A DNA stretch of 52,692 bases from Cyanobium sp. NIES-981 (lineage in GTDB: Bacteria; Cyanobacteriota; Cyanobacteriia; PCC-6307; Cyanobiaceae): the NCBI GenBank assembly GCA_945901765.1, contig CAMDLO010000009.1, positions 1-52,692 of the forward strand. Reading direction: 5' to 3'. Positions 30,838 to 41,797 of the stretch are shown one piece after another. Below the pieces are notes generated by a model. That model saw only the letters and a program-made list of their open reading frames with translations. It searched no databases and was not told the origin of the DNA. Position numbers and translations under genes: made by a program. Position 1 is the stretch's first letter. Every line of letters starts with the position of its first letter.

Positions 30838-32376
30838 ATGACACCCCCCCGCTGGCTGTTCTGGCACCGCCGCGACCTGCGCCTGGCCGACAATCTGGGC
30901 CTGGCCGCCGCCGCCCGGGCCACCCCGGCCCTCACCGGGGTGTTCGTGCTGGATCCGGCGATCCTGGAGGCCCGCGCCCCGGCGGACATCCCGGGCGAGC
31001 TGGCGGCGGTGGCGCCGGCGCGGCTGTGGTTTCTGCAGGAGAGCCTGCTGGAGCTGGCCGAGGGCTGGCTGGCTGCCGGCAGCCAGCTGCTGGTGCTGCA
31101 GGGGGATCCGGAGCAGGTGCTGCCGCAGGTGGCGGCGGCCCTGGGGGCCGAGGTGGTGGCCTGGAACCGGGATGTGGAGCCCTACGGACGTGAGCGCGAC
31201 CGGCGGGTGGCGCGGGCCCTGCAGGCCGATGGGCGCAAGGTGCTGGCGGGCTGGGACCAGCTGCTGGTGGAGCCCGAGGCCCTCGCCACCGGCGCTGGCG
31301 ACCCCTACCGGGTGTATGGGCCCTACTGGCGCAGCTGGCGGCGGCGCGTGGAGCAACTGGAGGCCCTCGGTTCCGCCGCCTCGGGTGGCCTGGAGCCCCT
31401 GCCGGCGCCGCGTTCCCTGATCGATTGCGATCCCGCCGCGCTCGCCGGCCTGCCCGTGGTGGGCCAGGAGCCCGGCAAGGCCCCGCCTGGCGGCCTGCAC
31501 CATGACTTTTCAGGCCCCGAGCTCTGCCCCTGCCGACCGGGCGAAGCGGCGGCCCAGGCACAATTGGCGGCTTTCTGCACAGGTCTGGCAGGCAGCGGCC
31601 GCAGTGCCCCCCTGCTCAGCTACGACGAGGGCCGCAACGTCCCCGGCGAGGCAGGCACCTCAGCCCTGAGCGCCGCCCTGAAGTTCGGCACCCTCAGCCC
31701 GCGCCAGGCCTGGGCGGCGGCCCAGCAGGCCCGGCAGACCGTGGCGGCCCTCGGGGGCGCAGCAGAAGCGCTGGCCTCGATCCAGGTGTGGGAGCAGGAG
31801 CTGGCCTGGCGCGAGTTCTACCAGCAGGCCCTGTTTCACTTCCCCGAGCTGGCGGAGGGGCCCTACCGGCCCCAGTGGCGCGCCTTCCCCTGGGAGAACG
31901 ACCCGCAGCGCTTCGCGGCCTGGCGCGAGGGGCTCACCGGCATGCCGATCATCGACGCGGCCATGCGTCAGCTCAATGAGAGCGGCTGGATGCACAACCG
32001 CTGCCGCATGATCGTGGCCTCCTACCTGGTGAAGGATCTGATCTGCGATTGGCGCTGGGGCGAAGCCGCCTTCATGGCCCGGCTGGTGGATGGCGACCTG
32101 GCCGCCAACAATGGCGGCTGGCAGTGGAGCGCCAGCAGCGGCATGGACCCCAAGCCCCTGCGCATCTTCAATCCGGCCACCCAGGCCTCGAAATTCGACC
32201 CGGAAGCCCGCTACATCCGCCACTGGCTGCCGGAGCTGAAGCACGTGGCCACCCGCGAGCTGCTCAGCGGCGAGATCGCCCCCCTGGAGCGGCGCGGCTA
32301 CCCGGCGCCGCTGGTGAGCCACAAGCGGCAACAGGCGCACTTCAAGGCGCTCTACGCGTCGCTGCAGTCCCCCTAG
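30838..32376 (+). CDS. phr: Deoxyribodipyrimidine photolyase, class I
   Basis: 512 aa. It repairs cyclobutane pyrimidine dimers with blue light. The N-terminal Rossmann antenna domain opens WLFWHRRDLRLADN (residues about 6-19) and continues to about 165. The FAD domain (about 270-505) has ELAWREFYQQ, IIDAAMRQLNESGWMHNRCRM and GDLAANNGGWQWSAS, the FAD-binding and electron-transfer Trp region. This is the normal domain order, which makes it a useful internal comparison for the 38315-39676 gene. It converges on the DegT aminotransferase, their stops overlapping by 4 bases. Confidence 0.95.
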   Translation: MTPPRWLFWHRRDLRLADNLGLAAAARATPALTGVFVLDPAILEARAPADIPGELAAVAPARLWFLQESLLELAEGWLAAGSQLLVLQGDPEQVLPQVAAALGAEVVAWNRDVEPYGRERDRRVARALQADGRKVLAGWDQLLVEPEALATGAGDPYRVYGPYWRSWRRRVEQLEALGSAASGGLEPLPAPRSLIDCDPAALAGLPVVGQEPGKAPPGGLHHDFSGPELCPCRPGEAAAQAQLAAFCTGLAGSGRSAPLLSYDEGRNVPGEAGTSALSAALKFGTLSPRQAWAAAQQARQTVAALGGAAEALASIQVWEQELAWREFYQQALFHFPELAEGPYRPQWRAFPWENDPQRFAAWREGLTGMPIIDAAMRQLNESGWMHNRCRMIVASYLVKDLICDWRWGEAAFMARLVDGDLAANNGGWQWSASSGMDPKPLRIFNPATQASKFDPEARYIRHWLPELKHVATRELLSGEIAPLERRGYPAPLVSHKRQQAHFKALYASLQSP

Positions 32377-35280: not shown

Positions 35281-36051
35281 CTAGGCCGGGTGTTGAGGCG
35301 CTGCGAGAGCCCCGGTTCCGGGGCTGCTGAGGCGGTACCGGGCGGGCAGCTGGAACCAGGCCAGATCGGGAGCGCTGTGATGCTCACGGTGGTATCCGAA
35401 GTGGTAGCAGGCCAGCAGCGAGAGCCAGGCGGGCAGGGGGAGATTGTCCGCCGCGGCGTGCTGCAGCGGCGAACGCTGCCGGCGGTGGGGCAGGTAGGTG
35501 CCGACCAGGAACAGCTGCAGGGAACTGAACAGCAGGGGCAGGATGCAGACCACCAGCAGCCGGACGCAGGCCTGACGCCAGCCCGCTGCAGCGAGCGTGC
35601 CGGCCAGCAGAACAAGGATTCCCCAGGCGGCCAGCAGGCGGGCCATCTGGGCCGCGGAGAGATAACCGGCCATGAACCGGCCGTACCAGGCCAGCACCCC
35701 GGCGGCGGGATCACCGTGGAAGTCGGGGTCTGCCGCCGTGGCCGTGCGCTGGTGATGGCGCTGATGGTTCTGGCGGCAGTGGCGATAGGGCAGGCCGGCA
35801 TACAGGGCCAGCACCGCCGCTCCAAGCCGGTCATTCCAGAGTGGTCGCTCCGGCAGCAGCACCCTGTGCATGGCGTCGTGGCCGACGATGAACAGACCGG
35901 TCTGCAGCTGCGTGCGCAGCAGCAGAGCGACAAGCAGCAGGGGGGCGGGAAGCCAGGCCGGCGGTGCTGCCAGCAGCAGCACCAGGCTCAACAGCCAGCT
36001 CAGCAGGATCAGCGCGGCAAAACCGAGCCCCCACCGGGTGGTGCCGCTCAA
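35281..36051 (-). CDS. crtW: Beta-carotene ketolase (CrtW type)
   Basis: 256 aa, membrane-bound di-iron oxygenase. His boxes: FIVGHDAMHR, RHCRQNHQRHHQR and YHFGYHREHHSAPDLAW, with several hydrophobic helices between (SWLLSLVLLLAAP and LLVVCILPLLFSSLQLF). It introduces 4-keto groups into beta-carotene, yielding echinenone or canthaxanthin, the pigments OCP needs. Its start overlaps the ocp stop by 4 bases (ATGA), so pigment enzyme and apoprotein are translationally coupled. Confidence 0.93.
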   Translation of the reverse strand: MSGTTRWGLGFAALILLSWLLSLVLLLAAPPAWLPAPLLLVALLLRTQLQTGLFIVGHDAMHRVLLPERPLWNDRLGAAVLALYAGLPYRHCRQNHQRHHQRTATAADPDFHGDPAAGVLAWYGRFMAGYLSAAQMARLLAAWGILVLLAGTLAAAGWRQACVRLLVVCILPLLFSSLQLFLVGTYLPHRRQRSPLQHAAADNLPLPAWLSLLACYHFGYHREHHSAPDLAWFQLPARYRLSSPGTGALAAPQHPA

Positions 36052-37001
36052 CGGGCGAATTTGAGCAGCTCCGCGGGTGAGGCCAGCAGATCAATCGCCA
36101 CGAAGTAGATCTTGCCCTCGGGATTGAGCAGAAAACGCCAGGCCACGTTCATGCCGATGCCGGCCCCGAACCAGGGGGTCTGCACCTTGCCGGTCACCTT
36201 GATCTGGGTGAAGTCACCGTCCGTCGGCTCGGCATAGCCGCGCTCCGGCAGAAGCTGCAGGTTCTGGCAGTCCTCACGGAAGAAGCGCAGGATCGCCTCG
36301 GTGCCGACGATCGGCTTCTGGAAGGGCGGCTGCAGCGCTCCATCCGGCAGGAACAGCTGAATCAGATTGTCGAAATCATTGGCGTTGAGCAGATCCATGT
36401 AGCTGTTCACCGTTGGATTGATCACCCCCTCGATGAACACCTTCCGGCGCTGCTGCTCGGGCGTGGGCGCCACGACCGGCTCGGCGACCCGCTGGGCTTC
36501 GCCCTTGGCGGGATCAAAACCCATGTCCACCACGAAGTTGCGCAGCAGGGTGATCTGCTGGCCCTGCTCCACGGCCTTGACAGAGCTCAGCACCGCCGAG
36601 GCATTGGCGGACAGCTGATAGCCCTCCGGGATGGGGGCGACGAGGCCGAGGCGCATCCACTCGCCCAGCTGATACCAGAAGCCCAGCTTGATGTTCACCG
36701 ACCAGCAGGCGTAACTGCGCCCGATCGGCGTATCGGACCGGTTGGCCAGATCGCACATCACCTGACTCTGTTCAGTGAAGGTCATCGCCTTGATCTGATC
36801 GAGCACCGGTTCGGCGAACTGCATGCGGGCAGCCCCGGGGGCAGCCACGGTGATGGTGCGGCCCATCTCCAGGTAGGCGTACCAGATCAGGGCCAGCTGG
36901 TCTTCAGCGCTGAGCAGGCGAAAGCGGGCCGTGATGGCAGGCACCACATCGGCGGTGCGGGTGTCGGGAAAGATCTGGGTGGCCCGCTCAAGCGTGAACA
37001 T
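36048..37001 (-). CDS. ocp: Orange carotenoid protein
   Basis: 317 aa, full length. The N-terminal helical domain (residues 1-160) has IWYAYLEMG (the Tyr44 region) and FWYQLGEWM (the Trp110 region). A linker (about 161-190) leads to the NTF2-like C-terminal domain with NSYMDLLNANDFDNL, LQPPFQKPIVGTEAIL and TPWFG (the Trp288 region). Carotenoid contacts in both domains are thus present. OCP quenches phycobilisome energy in strong light. Upstream (37002-37100) is the probable promoter region, which I could not resolve into boxes. An OCP1 subtype is likely given the adjacent frp. Confidence 0.97.
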   Translation of the reverse strand: MFTLERATQIFPDTRTADVVPAITARFRLLSAEDQLALIWYAYLEMGRTITVAAPGAARMQFAEPVLDQIKAMTFTEQSQVMCDLANRSDTPIGRSYACWSVNIKLGFWYQLGEWMRLGLVAPIPEGYQLSANASAVLSSVKAVEQGQQITLLRNFVVDMGFDPAKGEAQRVAEPVVAPTPEQQRRKVFIEGVINPTVNSYMDLLNANDFDNLIQLFLPDGALQPPFQKPIVGTEAILRFFREDCQNLQLLPERGYAEPTDGDFTQIKVTGKVQTPWFGAGIGMNVAWRFLLNPEGKIYFVAIDLLASPAELLKFAR

Positions 37002-37178: not shown

Positions 37179-37849
37179 ACCGCACCTCGATAGCCCTCCG
37201 GCAGCTGCAGGCGCCAGTGGCGCACAGGCCCTGCCGTCGCCCCGGCCCGCAGGCGCTCCAGCGCCGAAAAGCCAGCGCCGCTCGCCTTCAGCTCCGCCTC
37301 GAGCCGGCACCAGCACTGCAGAAATTCCTCCCTGGCTGCCGCCGCAGGCAGGCTGGCCAGGGCCTGCTGCTGCGGCTCCGGCAAAACCCGTCGCGCGATC
37401 GGTTGCCAGTCGAGCGCCGGTCGCAGCTGCTCCACATCCACGCCCACCGCCCGGCGGTGATGGAAGGCGAACACGATCAGATCGCCAGAATGGCTGAGAT
37501 TGAAAGCAGGGCCCGCCGGGCAGTGGGGTTTGCCATGAGCTCCCGCCGCGAGCGGCACGTGGGCGGGATCGCATCCCAGCCAACCTGCCAGCAGCCGCCG
37601 CAACCCACCGCGCGCAAGCAGGAAACGGTCGCTGTCATCAGGGCGCCGATAAGCCCGGTGGCGCTGCTGCTCAGCCGGCGAGAGGCTGGCGAGCAGACCC
37701 TGGCGCTGCCGCGGCGGCAGGGGATCGCAGCGGTTCAGCAGCAGCAGCAGGGGCTGGGGCTGGGGCGGGACCTGCAGCGGCGGTGGTTCCTGCAGCCGCC
37801 AGGGGCGAGGCTGCAGCGGCGGATCCGACGCGCTCCAGGGCTCAGCCAT
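37157..37849 (-). CDS. 4'-phosphopantetheinyl transferase (Sfp/HetI type)
   Basis: 230 aa from ATG at 37847-37849 (MAEPWSASDPP). It activates acyl and peptidyl carrier proteins with phosphopantetheine from CoA. Motifs: GKPHCPAGPAFNLSHSGD, GVDVEQLRP with its metal-binding Asp-x-Glu, and FLQCWCRLEAELKASG. An N-terminal proline- and leucine-rich region precedes the core. The stop codon falls in a tandem repeat, so the C-terminal few residues (LMPLT) are repeat-derived. It overlaps the HIT gene by 8 bases. Confidence 0.9.
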   Translation of the reverse strand: MAEPWSASDPPLQPRPWRLQEPPPLQVPPQPQPLLLLLNRCDPLPPRQRQGLLASLSPAEQQRHRAYRRPDDSDRFLLARGGLRRLLAGWLGCDPAHVPLAAGAHGKPHCPAGPAFNLSHSGDLIVFAFHHRRAVGVDVEQLRPALDWQPIARRVLPEPQQQALASLPAAAAREEFLQCWCRLEAELKASGAGFSALERLRAGATAGPVRHWRLQLPEGYRGAVALMPLT

Positions 37850-38318
37850 CAGCGGCCGGCGGCGGAAACCATTCCAGCAGCTGCCGGCCACGCTCCACCA
37901 GCTGCCGCACCATCCGGGGATCGACCGGTCCGCGCTCAGCGGCGGCCACGGCTCGGTAGTGGTCAGCCACGCCCCAGGCAGCGGTGGCCGGATCGGCGGC
38001 ATGGCGAGGAATCAGATGCAGATGCAGATGCGGCGCCCCCTCCCCGAAAGCGATGGCATACACCCGCTCACAACCGGTGAGGCGTTGCACCAACCGGCTC
38101 GCCTCACGCACGGCCCAACCCCAGCCAGCGGCTTCCCGGTCGTTGAAGGCCAGCGGCCCGCCCAGATGGCGGCGCGCATCGAGCAGCAGCCAGCCGACCA
38201 ACGGCGCCGGGTCGGGATGGTGACGCAGCACCCACCGATCGCAGCGGGCAATCTCCCAGGCCTGAGCGGCGGTGGCATCCGCGTGAAGGGCGCAGACAGG
38301 GCAGGGAAGAACCGTCAT
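37842..38318 (-). CDS. HIT-family hydrolase
   Basis: 158 aa from ATG at 38316-38318. The histidine triad appears as GAPHLHLHLIPRH, preceded by a CPVCAL Cys pair at the N-terminus and WVLRHHPDPAPLVGW. HIT proteins hydrolyse nucleotide phosphoramidates or dinucleoside polyphosphates. The ATG overlaps the stop of the permuted photolyase (ATGA), so it belongs to that operon. Confidence 0.88.
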   Translation of the reverse strand: MTVLPCPVCALHADATAAQAWEIARCDRWVLRHHPDPAPLVGWLLLDARRHLGGPLAFNDREAAGWGWAVREASRLVQRLTGCERVYAIAFGEGAPHLHLHLIPRHAADPATAAWGVADHYRAVAAAERGPVDPRMVRQLVERGRQLLEWFPPPAADG

Positions 38319-39676
38319 GGCCGTGGCACCGGATGGAAGACACCGGCCGGACGGCCCCACACCAGCGGTTCGGCCCGGCGCCAGTAACGGGAGAACCGCC
38401 GCAGATCCGGAGCACCGTCTCCCCGGAGGGGAAGGGACACGAACGGCTCGGGCTCGAGAACCTGCAGCGGCAGCTCCGCCTCCAGTCGCGCCGCGATCAC
38501 GCGGAAACGGGGATCCACCGCCGCACTGGTGACGATGCCGTCGGCACCGGCCGCAGCGGCGGCGGCCAGCAGCTGGGCCGACACCTCCCCCTCCCGCACC
38601 TGCACCGGCAGCTCCGCCACACACTCCCGCAGAAAGCGCAGCCGGCCGGAGGCCAGGGCTGCTCCGCCGGTGGTGGCGGTCGTGCCGGCGATCAGGGCCG
38701 CATCGAACACAAACACCGCTGGTGCGGCCGGATGGGCGCGCAGGGCCGGATTGGCCGGCCCCAGAGCTTCGCCATGCACCCACACCAGCGGCCGCCGCAG
38801 CGGCACTGGCGGCGGCACCCCCGCTGACGGAGGCGGCCCGGGCTGGGGGGAAGCGTGGTGAGGGCCCTCGCGGCGGCGCTCCACCGGCCCGAACAAGCGC
38901 AGCTCCAGCACCTCGTAACTGGCCTCAAACGGACAACCCGCCAGCGCCTTCGGGCAGCCGCGGCAGTAGCGGCCGCCGCCGAAACGCTCCAGGTTGGCCC
39001 GGTTGAACAGGTAAGGCTTGTGGCTGAAGCTGCTGGCGACCCACTGCCAGCTCAGGTTGTTGCTGGCCGGATCACCATCGAGCAGGTGCTGGAGGAACCA
39101 GCGGGCGCCGGCCTGCCAGCGCACCCGCCGCCAGTGCACCACGTAGGACGCCAGCCACATCCGGGCGTGGTTGTGCAGCCAGCCCGTGCCGCAGAGCTCG
39201 GCGGCGAAGCCATCGATGCAGGCCAGCCCTGTGGCAGCGGCGGCGATGTCGGCAGGCAGATCCGGGGCGTAGGCCTCGGCCGGCAGACCGGTCTTGAGCG
39301 GTTCCCGGTCGTGCCAGATGCCATCACCGAGCTGATGCCAGAGGCGCTGCCAGTAATCACGCCAGCCGAGTTCGTTGATCAGCTTCTCACCGGCACGGCG
39401 CTGGGCGGCGCTCCAGCCATGGGCCGGAGGCTGGGCGGCAAACAGCTCCCCCTGCACCGCGGCGTCAGGCGGTGCCATCGCCCGCAGCCGCGCAAACACC
39501 GCGTCGCGCACCTCCGCCAGGGTGAGCACGCCGTGGCGGATGTAGGGAGAGAGCCGGGTCACGGCCCCATCGAGGTGATTGCGACTGGCGCCATAACGGG
39601 CCGGGTCGATGGCCTCCAGCCGCTGCTCCGCCGCACGGCGGCCGCCCCTGACAACGGCACTGGGCGAGCGGGTCAT
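38315..39676 (-). CDS. Photolyase-like protein with inverted domain order
   Basis: 453 aa from ATG at 39674-39676. Residues about 1-260 are the photolyase FAD-binding domain: VTRLSPYIRHGVLTLAEV, GWRDYWQRLWHQLG, TGWLHNHARMWLAS and PASNNLSWQWVASSF. A cluster CRGCPKALAGC (Cys near 238, 241, 247) follows, then a proline-rich linker (about 275-292). Residues about 293-440 look like the Rossmann antenna domain that normally comes first: LVWVHGEALGPANPALR, AVFVFDAAL, RLRFLRECVAEL, DGIVTSAAVDP. Order is thus C-domain then N-domain. No DNA-binding or repair activity can be assumed. The gene sits 38 bases after DUF389 and is coupled to the HIT gene. Confidence 0.8.
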   Translation of the reverse strand: MTRSPSAVVRGGRRAAEQRLEAIDPARYGASRNHLDGAVTRLSPYIRHGVLTLAEVRDAVFARLRAMAPPDAAVQGELFAAQPPAHGWSAAQRRAGEKLINELGWRDYWQRLWHQLGDGIWHDREPLKTGLPAEAYAPDLPADIAAAATGLACIDGFAAELCGTGWLHNHARMWLASYVVHWRRVRWQAGARWFLQHLLDGDPASNNLSWQWVASSFSHKPYLFNRANLERFGGGRYCRGCPKALAGCPFEASYEVLELRLFGPVERRREGPHHASPQPGPPPSAGVPPPVPLRRPLVWVHGEALGPANPALRAHPAAPAVFVFDAALIAGTTATTGGAALASGRLRFLRECVAELPVQVREGEVSAQLLAAAAAAGADGIVTSAAVDPRFRVIAARLEAELPLQVLEPEPFVSLPLRGDGAPDLRRFSRYWRRAEPLVWGRPAGVFHPVPRP

Positions 39677-39714: not shown

Positions 39715-40818
39715 TCAATCCCCATCCGGCTGATCATCGCTGGTCTGAGCTTCGGGCAACGGGGGTTGGCTCGGTGGCGGCAGCACCTCCAGTTCGGGAG
39801 GGTTGGGTGCCGTCTCCGGACCGACCAGGTCCACGGCGGTGCGTTGCACCACCAGCCGGAAGCGCAGGGGGGCCTGGCTGCGGTTGACGAACGACTGCAC
39901 ATCCGCCACCTGCCGGGAGGTGGGCAGGGAGGGATCCGTGACCCGCACCCGGGCGCGGATCAGGGGCGGATTCTGCTTCCAGTCGATGGACAGTCCCACC
40001 AGATCAATGGCGGGATCACTGCCGAGGGTGATCGTGTTGCTGCGCAACTGTTTCTCGATGGCCACCTCCAGCAGCTGGGCCTTGCTCTCCTGACGGGATC
40101 GCTGCAGCAGCCGGTAGAAGCTGCTGCCCAGCGGAATCACCAACAGAGCGGTGAGAGCCAGGCTGGTGAGGCCGAGCCGGCTGTGAAACAGGCGGCTCCG
40201 GTACACCTTTTCCAGTGTTCCCAGGGTCCCCATCGCCCCCACCATGATCCCCAGGAGATTGGTGATGAACAGCAGCAGGGCCCCATAGGCCTGGACCCAC
40301 AGGGAAGAGGACAGCAGGATCCCTACCACGCACATCGGCGGCACCAGCGCCACGGCAATGGCCAGGCCGGCCAGGGCCGAGATCGCATCCTTCCGCAGCT
40401 TGGCGTACATGGCCACGGCTCCGGCCACCAGGGCCACGCCGAGGTCGAGCAGGTTGGGGCTGGTGCGGTTGATCACCTCACTGCCGAAGCTGGGGAGCGC
40501 CACCAGATGCCCCACGGCCATCGCCAGCAGCACACACACCACCACACCCAGCATCAGGGTGCGCAGGGCCCGCAGGAACATCGGCAAACGGCCCTGCAGG
40601 ATCTCGAAGGCCATCGCCTGCAGCGGCAGGATCCAGGGGGCCACCACCATGGCGCCGATCACCACGCCGGGGCTGTTGGCCAGCAGACCGAGGCTGGCGA
40701 TCAGGGTGGCGCCCACGGTGAGCACCACGAACACCTGGCTGAAACTGGCCTCGTGCTCGAACTCCTGACGCAGGGCGTCCAGCCGGGCCTGATCAGACGA
40801 AAGCGGGCCACTGCCCAT
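39715..40818 (-). CDS. DUF389 family membrane protein
   Basis: 367 aa. The N-terminal two thirds form a membrane domain with about six helices, including FVVLTVGATLIASLGLLANS and the DUF389 hallmark VVIGAMVVAPWILPLQAMAF. ALAGLAIAVALVPPMCVVGI is a second hallmark. The C-terminal third (from about residue 245) is a soluble alpha/beta region. DUF389 (TIGR00341) proteins have no firm function. The gene precedes the permuted photolyase on the same strand. Confidence 0.9.
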   Translation of the reverse strand: MGSGPLSSDQARLDALRQEFEHEASFSQVFVVLTVGATLIASLGLLANSPGVVIGAMVVAPWILPLQAMAFEILQGRLPMFLRALRTLMLGVVVCVLLAMAVGHLVALPSFGSEVINRTSPNLLDLGVALVAGAVAMYAKLRKDAISALAGLAIAVALVPPMCVVGILLSSSLWVQAYGALLLFITNLLGIMVGAMGTLGTLEKVYRSRLFHSRLGLTSLALTALLVIPLGSSFYRLLQRSRQESKAQLLEVAIEKQLRSNTITLGSDPAIDLVGLSIDWKQNPPLIRARVRVTDPSLPTSRQVADVQSFVNRSQAPLRFRLVVQRTAVDLVGPETAPNPPELEVLPPPSQPPLPEAQTSDDQPDGD

Positions 40819-41014: not shown

Positions 41015-41797
41015 ATGCTCCTCGATCTGCGCGGCAAGAAGGCCCTGGTCACGGGCATCGCCAACAACAAGTCGATCGCCTGGGGCATCGCCCAGCAGCT
41101 GCACGCCGCCGGCTGCGAGCTGGGCGTCACCTACCTGCCGGATGAAAAGGGCCGCTTCGAGGGCAAGGTGCGCGAGCTCACCGCGCCGCTGGCCCCCAGC
41201 CTGTTCGAACCGCTCAATGTGCAGGAGCCTGCCCAGATCGAGGCGGTGTTCACCAGGGTGGCTGAGCAGTGGGGCTCGATCGACGTGCTGGTGCACTGCC
41301 TGGCCTTCGCCGGCAAGGAGGAGCTGATCGGCGACTACTCCGCCATCAGCCCCGAGGGCTTCGCCCGCGCCCTGGAGGTGAGCGCCTACTCGCTGGCGCC
41401 CCTCTGCCGCCACGCCAAGCCCCTGTTCAACGCGGGCGCCAGTGTGATCACCCTCAGCTACCTGGGCGCCGAGCGGGCGATCCCCAACTACAACGTGATG
41501 GGTGTGGCCAAGGCGGCCCTGGAGGCCTCGGTGCGCTACCTGGCCGCCGAGCTGGGCCCGGAGAAGCAGGTGCGGGTGAACGCCATCAGCGCCGGCCCGA
41601 TCCGCACCCTGGCCAGCAGCGCCATCGGCGGCATCCTCGACATGATCCACAACGTGGAGGAGAAGGCCCCCCTGCGCCGCACCGTCACCCAGGAGGAGGT
41701 AGGCAGCACCGCCGCCTTCCTGGCCAGCCCCCTGGCTTCCGGCATCACCGGCCAGGTGCTCTACGTGGACGCCGGCTACTGCATCACCGGCATGTGA
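41015..41797 (+). CDS. fabI: Enoyl-[acyl-carrier-protein] reductase (NADH)
   Basis: 260 aa. SDR-type reductase of fatty acid elongation. N-terminal NAD-binding VTGIANNKSIAWGIAQQL is the FabI variant of the SDR glycine motif. The active-site Tyr-x6-Lys lies in NYNVMGVAKAAL, and SAGPIRTLASSAI and LYVDAGYCITGM are conserved. ATG at 41015. A 196-base spacer separates it from the divergent DUF389 gene; nothing else was recognised there. An orphan Nif11 gene converges 8 bases after its stop. Confidence 0.97.
   Translation: MLLDLRGKKALVTGIANNKSIAWGIAQQLHAAGCELGVTYLPDEKGRFEGKVRELTAPLAPSLFEPLNVQEPAQIEAVFTRVAEQWGSIDVLVHCLAFAGKEELIGDYSAISPEGFARALEVSAYSLAPLCRHAKPLFNAGASVITLSYLGAERAIPNYNVMGVAKAALEASVRYLAAELGPEKQVRVNAISAGPIRTLASSAIGGILDMIHNVEEKAPLRRTVTQEEVGSTAAFLASPLASGITGQVLYVDAGYCITGM

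Follow-up and report, generated by a model that had tools for sequence, protein, structure and literature searches.

The window analysed here, a stretch of 52,692 nucleotides, carries on its minus strand a phr6-type gene encoding a 453-aa photolyase homologue with its two domains in reversed order (38315-39676). The ORF runs from an ATG at 39676 to a TGA at 38315-38317, exactly the interval given in a preliminary description, which named no strand; an alternative TTG start at 39718 would give 467 aa. The FAD-binding catalytic domain comes first (residues 1-262; 38891-39676, minus), followed by a proline-rich linker recognized from the sequence and from low pLDDT (about residues 263-295; 38792-38890, minus), the length of which varies across 23 fused rows, and by a C-terminal antenna-type alpha/beta domain (residues 296-442; 38351-38791, minus) closing with RRFSRYWRRAE. 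The preliminary description had read the product in this way, with the FAD half first, the antenna-type half second and a proline-rich linker between them, and this reading was borne out. The reversed order has already been published for picocyanobacteria as Phr6 when fused and as Phr4 plus Phr5 when split (Haney et al. 2022, PMC9426592, available as an excerpt); in 81 picocyanobacterial genomes and other model strains, the excerpt reports a protein with four cysteines, fused as Phr6 in two Cyanobium strains and encoded by neighbouring phr4 and phr5 genes in marine Synechococcus. The gene at 38315-39676 is another Phr6, and the architecture itself is known. To judge from titles and abstract openings, none of the other open-licence PMC articles listed describes a photolyase with reversed order or with two subunits.

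An ordinary class I photolyase of the Phr3 type is encoded at 30838-32376 on the plus strand and served for comparison; PF00875 and PF03441 were both over cut-off, and the best NCBIfam match, TIGR03556, reached 609 bits, under its cut-off of 884.6. The Cyanobium genome has four FAD_binding_7 matches, namely this Phr3, a protein on contig C63, the phr6 product, and an Fe-S protein of the Phr2 type on contig C64. Directly downstream of phr6, a HIT-like ORF (37842-38318, minus) starts within the phr6 stop codon (ATGA, 4-bp overlap); its histidine-triad motif was recognized by eye, with no Pfam or NCBIfam match at E 1e-4. As it adjoins in just one of the 199 loci compared, the HIT-like gene was rejected as a partner of phr6. 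A fabI-like match (41015-41797 in the window) was a common neighbour, present in 138 of 199 loci by tblastn at E 1e-6, a count that could include other short-chain dehydrogenases. An orange carotenoid protein gene (36048-37001; PF09150, E 1.2e-62) lies close to phr6; none of the remaining 198 loci, many of them with short flanks, gave a match.

In Pfam, PF03441 (FAD_binding_7) matched residues 100-222 of the phr6 product (E 9e-22), and the top match of the FAD half in a PDB profile search was residues 209-409 of 1owl (E 1.1e-25). The FAD-domain profile begins near the N-terminus, with no alpha/beta domain ahead of it. As a single sequence, the C-terminal half matched PF00875 (DNA_photolyase) at E 0.069, under the cut-off, and a profile of 53 relatives of this half matched residues 4-117 of 1owl at E 0.034. 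Compared by hhalign with a profile of PF00875-type N-domains (30 rows, taken from the same phylum), the C-half profile scored 97.9% with E 4.6e-13 over 133 columns, and the match took in the F-x-x-(Y/F)-W motif at the end; a control against the FAD-domain profile gave E 0.16, and chance likeness was rejected on these two values. The homology of the C half with the photolyase N-domain, for which the preliminary description had proposed a profile test, was therefore upheld, and hhalign paired the segments named there with those of the Phr3 in the window. The fold comparison proposed alongside gave weak support. The C half was modelled by AlphaFold with a pLDDT of 89.7, and Foldseek with this half alone ranked photolyases first (1qnf, TMq 0.60; 1owm, 0.58) and universal stress proteins, which have the same broad fold, below them (TMq 0.34-0.42), with no match under E 0.001. 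The whole product was modelled with a pLDDT of 91.0 and a pTM of 0.90 from an alignment in which just 17 of 90 rows besides the query were fused, and these values suggest that the two halves have a defined mutual placement. All 50 whole-chain PDB fold matches listed were photolyases or cryptochromes, with 241-310 columns aligned, as expected because a sequential aligner was used on a reordered protein. The NCBIfam matches were partial and far under every curated score; TIGR03556 gave 65.4 bits against its cut-off of 884.6, so that the score of a class I CPD photolyase was not reached.

Four cysteines of the FAD half are predicted Fe-S ligands: C153 (39218-39220, minus), and C238, C241 and C248 (YCRGCPKALAGCP; 38933-38965, minus), each of which is Cys in 199 of 199 loci. 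The latter three are the trio that had been noticed as a possible cluster or metal site; they form part of an Fe-S ligand layout whose fourth member, C153, had been overlooked. The layout equals that of the Phr2 of the same genome and that of PhrB, for which the excerpt of PMC3204975 gives cysteines 350, 438, 441 and 454. One locus outside the 199 set (L240, genome G507) encodes a Phr4 with none of the four Fe-S cysteines yet with Phr5 adjoining, a natural cluster-less pair. For FAD binding, lesion contact and electron transfer, positions were assigned roles after those of the E. coli and A. nidulans photolyases. R106 and W105 were conserved in 198 of 198 loci, E102 in 197 of 198, and N206, W210, W187, N169 and W212 each in 199 of 199; M173 was present in 186 of 199, with Leu otherwise, and the outermost Trp of the triad was replaced by Tyr in 196 of 199. 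The CPD lesion-contact residues E102, W105, N169, M173 and W212 are present and conserved, and the lesion pocket is predicted from them to be of the CPD type.

A family search of 300 genomes gave some match in 230, the weaker of which were taken as other photolyases. Among the 120 strongest, 34 were fused and 86 split, the splits comprising an in-frame stop (18), frame 1 (14) and frame 2 (54). One locus counted as split (L102, genome G297) has its frame break inside the antenna half and is otherwise like the fused form; it was left out of all later counts. When 84,980 species' genomes were scanned, 584 relatives were confirmed and the 80 best of them kept: 17 were fused, 47 were split and 16 had no second half in the fetched stretch. 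In these 16, the downstream sequence extended over 0.2 kb (L168), 1.5 kb (L203) or about 4-5 kb (the other 14), and all 16 genomes had a Phr5 match elsewhere, in one case (G636) merely a few kb past the fetched stretch. The two sets overlap in some genomes (e.g. L007/L127 and L029/L139). The earlier suggestion of a domain permutation or a fusion of separate parts proved right on both counts, the order being reversed and the halves being separate genes elsewhere, adjacent or unlinked.

The co-occurrence of the two halves was examined in 386 cyanobacterial genomes with cut-offs of E <=1e-6 for the Phr5 profile and E <=1e-60 for the Phr4 profile. Phr5 was present in 83 genomes and Phr4 in 82; 84 genomes had either half and 81 of these had both (Fisher p 4e-80, which overstates the association because the genomes are not phylogenetically independent). 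Phr5 stood alone in two genomes and was partial in both: in G047 it is cut off by the contig end, and in G627 (L239) it consists of two short ORFs, with no Phr4 match, and looks like an orphaned, decaying partner. The single genome with a Phr4-like protein alone (G325) encodes a Cys-less SPL with a different C-terminal domain, and 18 more genomes with Phr4-profile matches of E 1e-33 to 3e-31 carry Phr7-type proteins and had no Phr5 match. The two genes lay within 10 kb of each other in 59 of the 81 pairs; in 12 pairs they shared a contig at a distance of 26 kb to 4.9 Mb, and in 10 they were on different contigs, where draft breaks may sometimes be the cause. Among 201 Chloroflexota genomes, a sample that includes the carrier centre G628, Phr5 was found in 10 and Phr4 in 9, all 9 among the 10, and Phr5 occurred without detected Phr4 in G718; among 149 Planctomycetota genomes there was one carrier, the centre itself. 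Loci that differ more in one half also tend to differ more in the other (r 0.84 between the distances, 180 loci), as shared descent alone would also produce. That 81 of 84 genomes have both halves, even when the genes are far apart, speaks for a photolyase of two subunits.

Thinning the 199 loci at 90% identity and filtering them by length left 120 for a tree; on this quick tree, with long branches flagged, the fused state required at least seven changes, two of them forced by starred branches. Outside cyanobacteria, the best 80 of 584 relatives included fused loci in a Rhodospirillales assembly (L159), in Planctomycetaceae (L167 and L177) and in Litorilinea of the Chloroflexota (L165, start lost at the contig end), and four more fused loci (L318-L321) came from genomes in the class of the L159 genome. 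On Deinococcus plasmids of 380-670 kb (L294, L295, L296 and L297), three loci were fused and one was a split pair; the split pair of Deinococcus QL22 has a 4-bp overlap, and reversed-order photolyases of Deinococcus are annotated as 'FAD-binding domain-containing protein'. Fused forms reach assemblies of Chloroflexota, Planctomycetota and Pseudomonadota as well as Deinococcus plasmids, although several of the non-cyanobacterial fused loci come from metagenome assemblies and may be mis-binned. A locus from a MAG labelled Tatlockia (Legionellaceae; L147) falls within the cyanobacterial sequences in the tree and is probably a mis-binned contig. Of 26 pattern-matched stretches in viral_contigs, none was confirmed by tblastn as a viral relative, and of the three matches that a BFVD fold search gave under E 0.001, two carry the name photolyase.

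The FO synthase CofH was sought at E 1e-10 in 30 genomes (29 carriers), with three plasmid records kept apart. CofH was not found at this threshold in 14 carriers, namely G112, G162, G350, G645 and 10 other Chloroflexota; G112 and G162 are 100% complete and stand beside named Synechococcus in the tree. Ten cyanobacterial carriers had a match, eight of them over the cut-off, with G140 and the window's own genome (361 bits against 374.1) below it; five other carriers also had matches below the cut-off. With CofH not found in 14 carriers at this threshold, 8-HDF is unlikely to serve generally as the chromophore, barring its uptake or synthesis by another route.

We consider it probable that the phr6 product is the single-chain form of a two-part Fe-S photolyase of the SPL branch, which would perform light-driven repair and whose halves would be separate subunits in most relatives. 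The N-terminal half would bind FAD, the predicted four-Cys cluster and the UV lesion and would carry out the repair chemistry, while the C-terminal antenna-type half, held by the flexible proline-rich linker, would pack on the catalytic half and probably pass light energy, absorbed by a putative chromophore, to FAD. In most relatives the halves, encoded by adjacent or unlinked genes, would be separate polypeptides expected to form a non-covalent heteromer, and the fusion state appears to have changed several times in evolution. The two-subunit reading gives the split phr4/phr5 pairs a testable mechanism.

That a sequencing or assembly artefact joined two genes into the phr6 ORF, the outcome named in the preliminary description as fatal to its reading, deserves practically no credence: fusions in the same order occur in 34 of the 120 family loci and in 17 of the 80 loci of the other collection (overlapping sets), and nothing was found in its support. 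For the split pairs, Haney et al. considered both a heterodimer and a +1 frameshift (PMC9426592, excerpt). If programmed +1 frameshifting joined phr4 and phr5 into one protein, phr6 would encode the same protein without the frameshift; the excerpt reports a spacing of seven G-C base pairs in all of their split strains, and in our data only 45 of 131 loci show an SD-like motif, as recognized by a simple pattern, ahead of the start of phr5. These 131 junctions were resolved out of 132 split loci (L116 was left out), with start codons set by one chosen rule. Measured from the stop of phr4 to the start of phr5, however, the offset took 39 distinct values from -4 to +413, with +7 in only 7 of the 131 loci, and all three frames were used (76, 37 and 18 of 131), an in-frame stop separating the halves in 18 of the 86 family splits. 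The chosen phr5 start was ATG in 122 of the 131 loci and 44 starts overlapped the phr4 stop. At the junction of Synechococcus WH7803 (L139), an in-frame TGA is followed by an ATG at +30, or alternatively by a GTG directly after the stop (L029), which differs from the constant junction stated in the excerpt of PMC9426592. With three frames and 39 spacings, and with partners kept even when far apart, frameshifting is disfavoured as a general explanation and two interacting chains fit better; it was rejected as a general mechanism on the variable junctions and the unlinked phr4/phr5 pairs, and we hold it very unlikely that the split pairs are made as one protein.

For the two-part photolyase proposed here, the substrate and the role of light were also weighed. 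The active site of the phr6 product contains HNH, not the HH of the Fe-S Phr2 of its own genome, an HH pair in the active site being a feature of Fe-S (6-4) photolyases. Haney et al. infer a (6-4) photolyase from the Fe-S cysteines, and the four-Cys layout common with PhrB-type (6-4) enzymes, the match of the FAD-half profile to PhrB structures (E 4e-5) and a phenotype biased to UV-C (PMC9426592, excerpt) agree with them. The CPD-contact positions are nevertheless kept, and PF04244, the PhrB-type N-domain, had no match in the phr6 product up to E 10 in the Pfam search, against E 3.1e-67 for the Phr2 as positive control. Because the HH pair and PF04244 of Phr2 are both absent from the phr6 product, and the excerpt of PMC9649867 presents SPLs as CPD enzymes carrying an Fe-S cluster, CPD is the more likely substrate to judge from these features, and a (6-4) specificity, while conceivable, appears unlikely. 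As for light, the excerpt of PMC9426592 reports that phr4/phr5 of strain RS9916 raised the UV-C survival of an E. coli phr lexA strain 10-20 fold, with no significant difference, unlike for phr1-phr3, between cells in light and in dark, and that the same region did not protect after UV-B. Light dependence is a hallmark of photolyases; its absence in this test speaks most strongly against a light-driven enzyme and would fit a product that protects or signals without photorepair, as a cryptochrome-like sensor or a dark-acting lesion-binding flavoprotein; the best partial NCBIfam match of the phr6 product, TIGR02765 (DASH cryptochrome; 77.5 bits), points the same way but lies far under its cut-off of 317.05. 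Against such a role, the lesion-contact and electron-transfer residues are kept, and the antenna-type half, which would have little point without light, is retained in nearly all carrier genomes. It is possible that the chromophore or cluster was missing from the E. coli construct, or that lesion binding helped in the dark, and we regard a function without photorepair as improbable. Between signalling and repair, the two functions first suggested, the conserved FAD and lesion-contact residues favour repair, even though the published protection is light-independent.

Compared with the class I CPD photolyases (Phr3; 1owl and 1qnf), both domains are homologous and the active-site residues are common, but in the phr6 product the order is reversed, four extra cysteines are present, and a short linker takes the place of the long inter-domain segment. 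PhrB, the Fe-S (6-4) photolyase, has the four-Cys layout in common with the phr6 product (PMC3204975, excerpt), whereas PhrB-type proteins have the ordinary order, a PF04244-type N-domain, seen in this genome in Phr2, and the HH motif. With the Phr6 and Phr4-Phr5 proteins of Haney et al., the present locus has in common the domain order, the four cysteines and a nearby phr3; their excerpt describes one constant junction, while the junctions here vary, the genes are sometimes unlinked, and other phyla have fused forms as well. What is added to the published Phr6 is that fused, adjacent and unlinked forms coexist.

SPLs are said to be without the alpha/beta domain and have been proposed as ancestors of the photolyase family, and S. 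elongatus is said to have one (PMC9649867 and PMC9178010, excerpts). Like an SPL as described there, the phr6 product starts with the FAD domain and has the Fe-S ligands; unlike it, it is not devoid of an antenna domain, since an antenna-type domain stands behind the FAD domain or, in split relatives, is supplied in trans. Phr7 and the SPLs with a 'Z-domain', from Prochlorococcus-type genomes and Ruegeria, likewise have the FAD domain first and the extra domain last, but the 18 Phr7-type sequences lack the Fe-S Cys motif and are each one long ORF. By hhalign, the Z-domain matched Phr5 weakly, with E 0.0015 for G325, 0.012 for five alphaproteobacterial rows and 0.013 for Persicobacter, each scoring above 60 of 60 column shuffles, and E 0.27 for the Prochlorococcus-type set, which had no shuffle control. 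Mixed Z-domain sets scored high because fused Phr6 rows were among them; without these rows, the sets gave E 0.065 or worse against ordinary N-domains, and by hhalign alone the Z-domain as a relative of Phr5 is not significant. The Persicobacter (Bacteroidota) locus (L299, 1722-3062) is an unannotated SPL on a plasmid, the C-terminal domain of which closes with YWKKA, reminiscent of Phr5. As the antenna half is present in this branch, its 'short' photolyases do not lack that half; that the SPL branch is on the whole not antenna-less, with a partner that is separate or fused behind, and that the Cys-less single-strand-DNA SPLs carry, as their Z-domain, a decayed form of this same partner, we put forward tentatively, as somewhat less than an even prospect. 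These comparisons bear on the proposal that short photolyases represent a pre-antenna state: the antenna half is here just encoded elsewhere.
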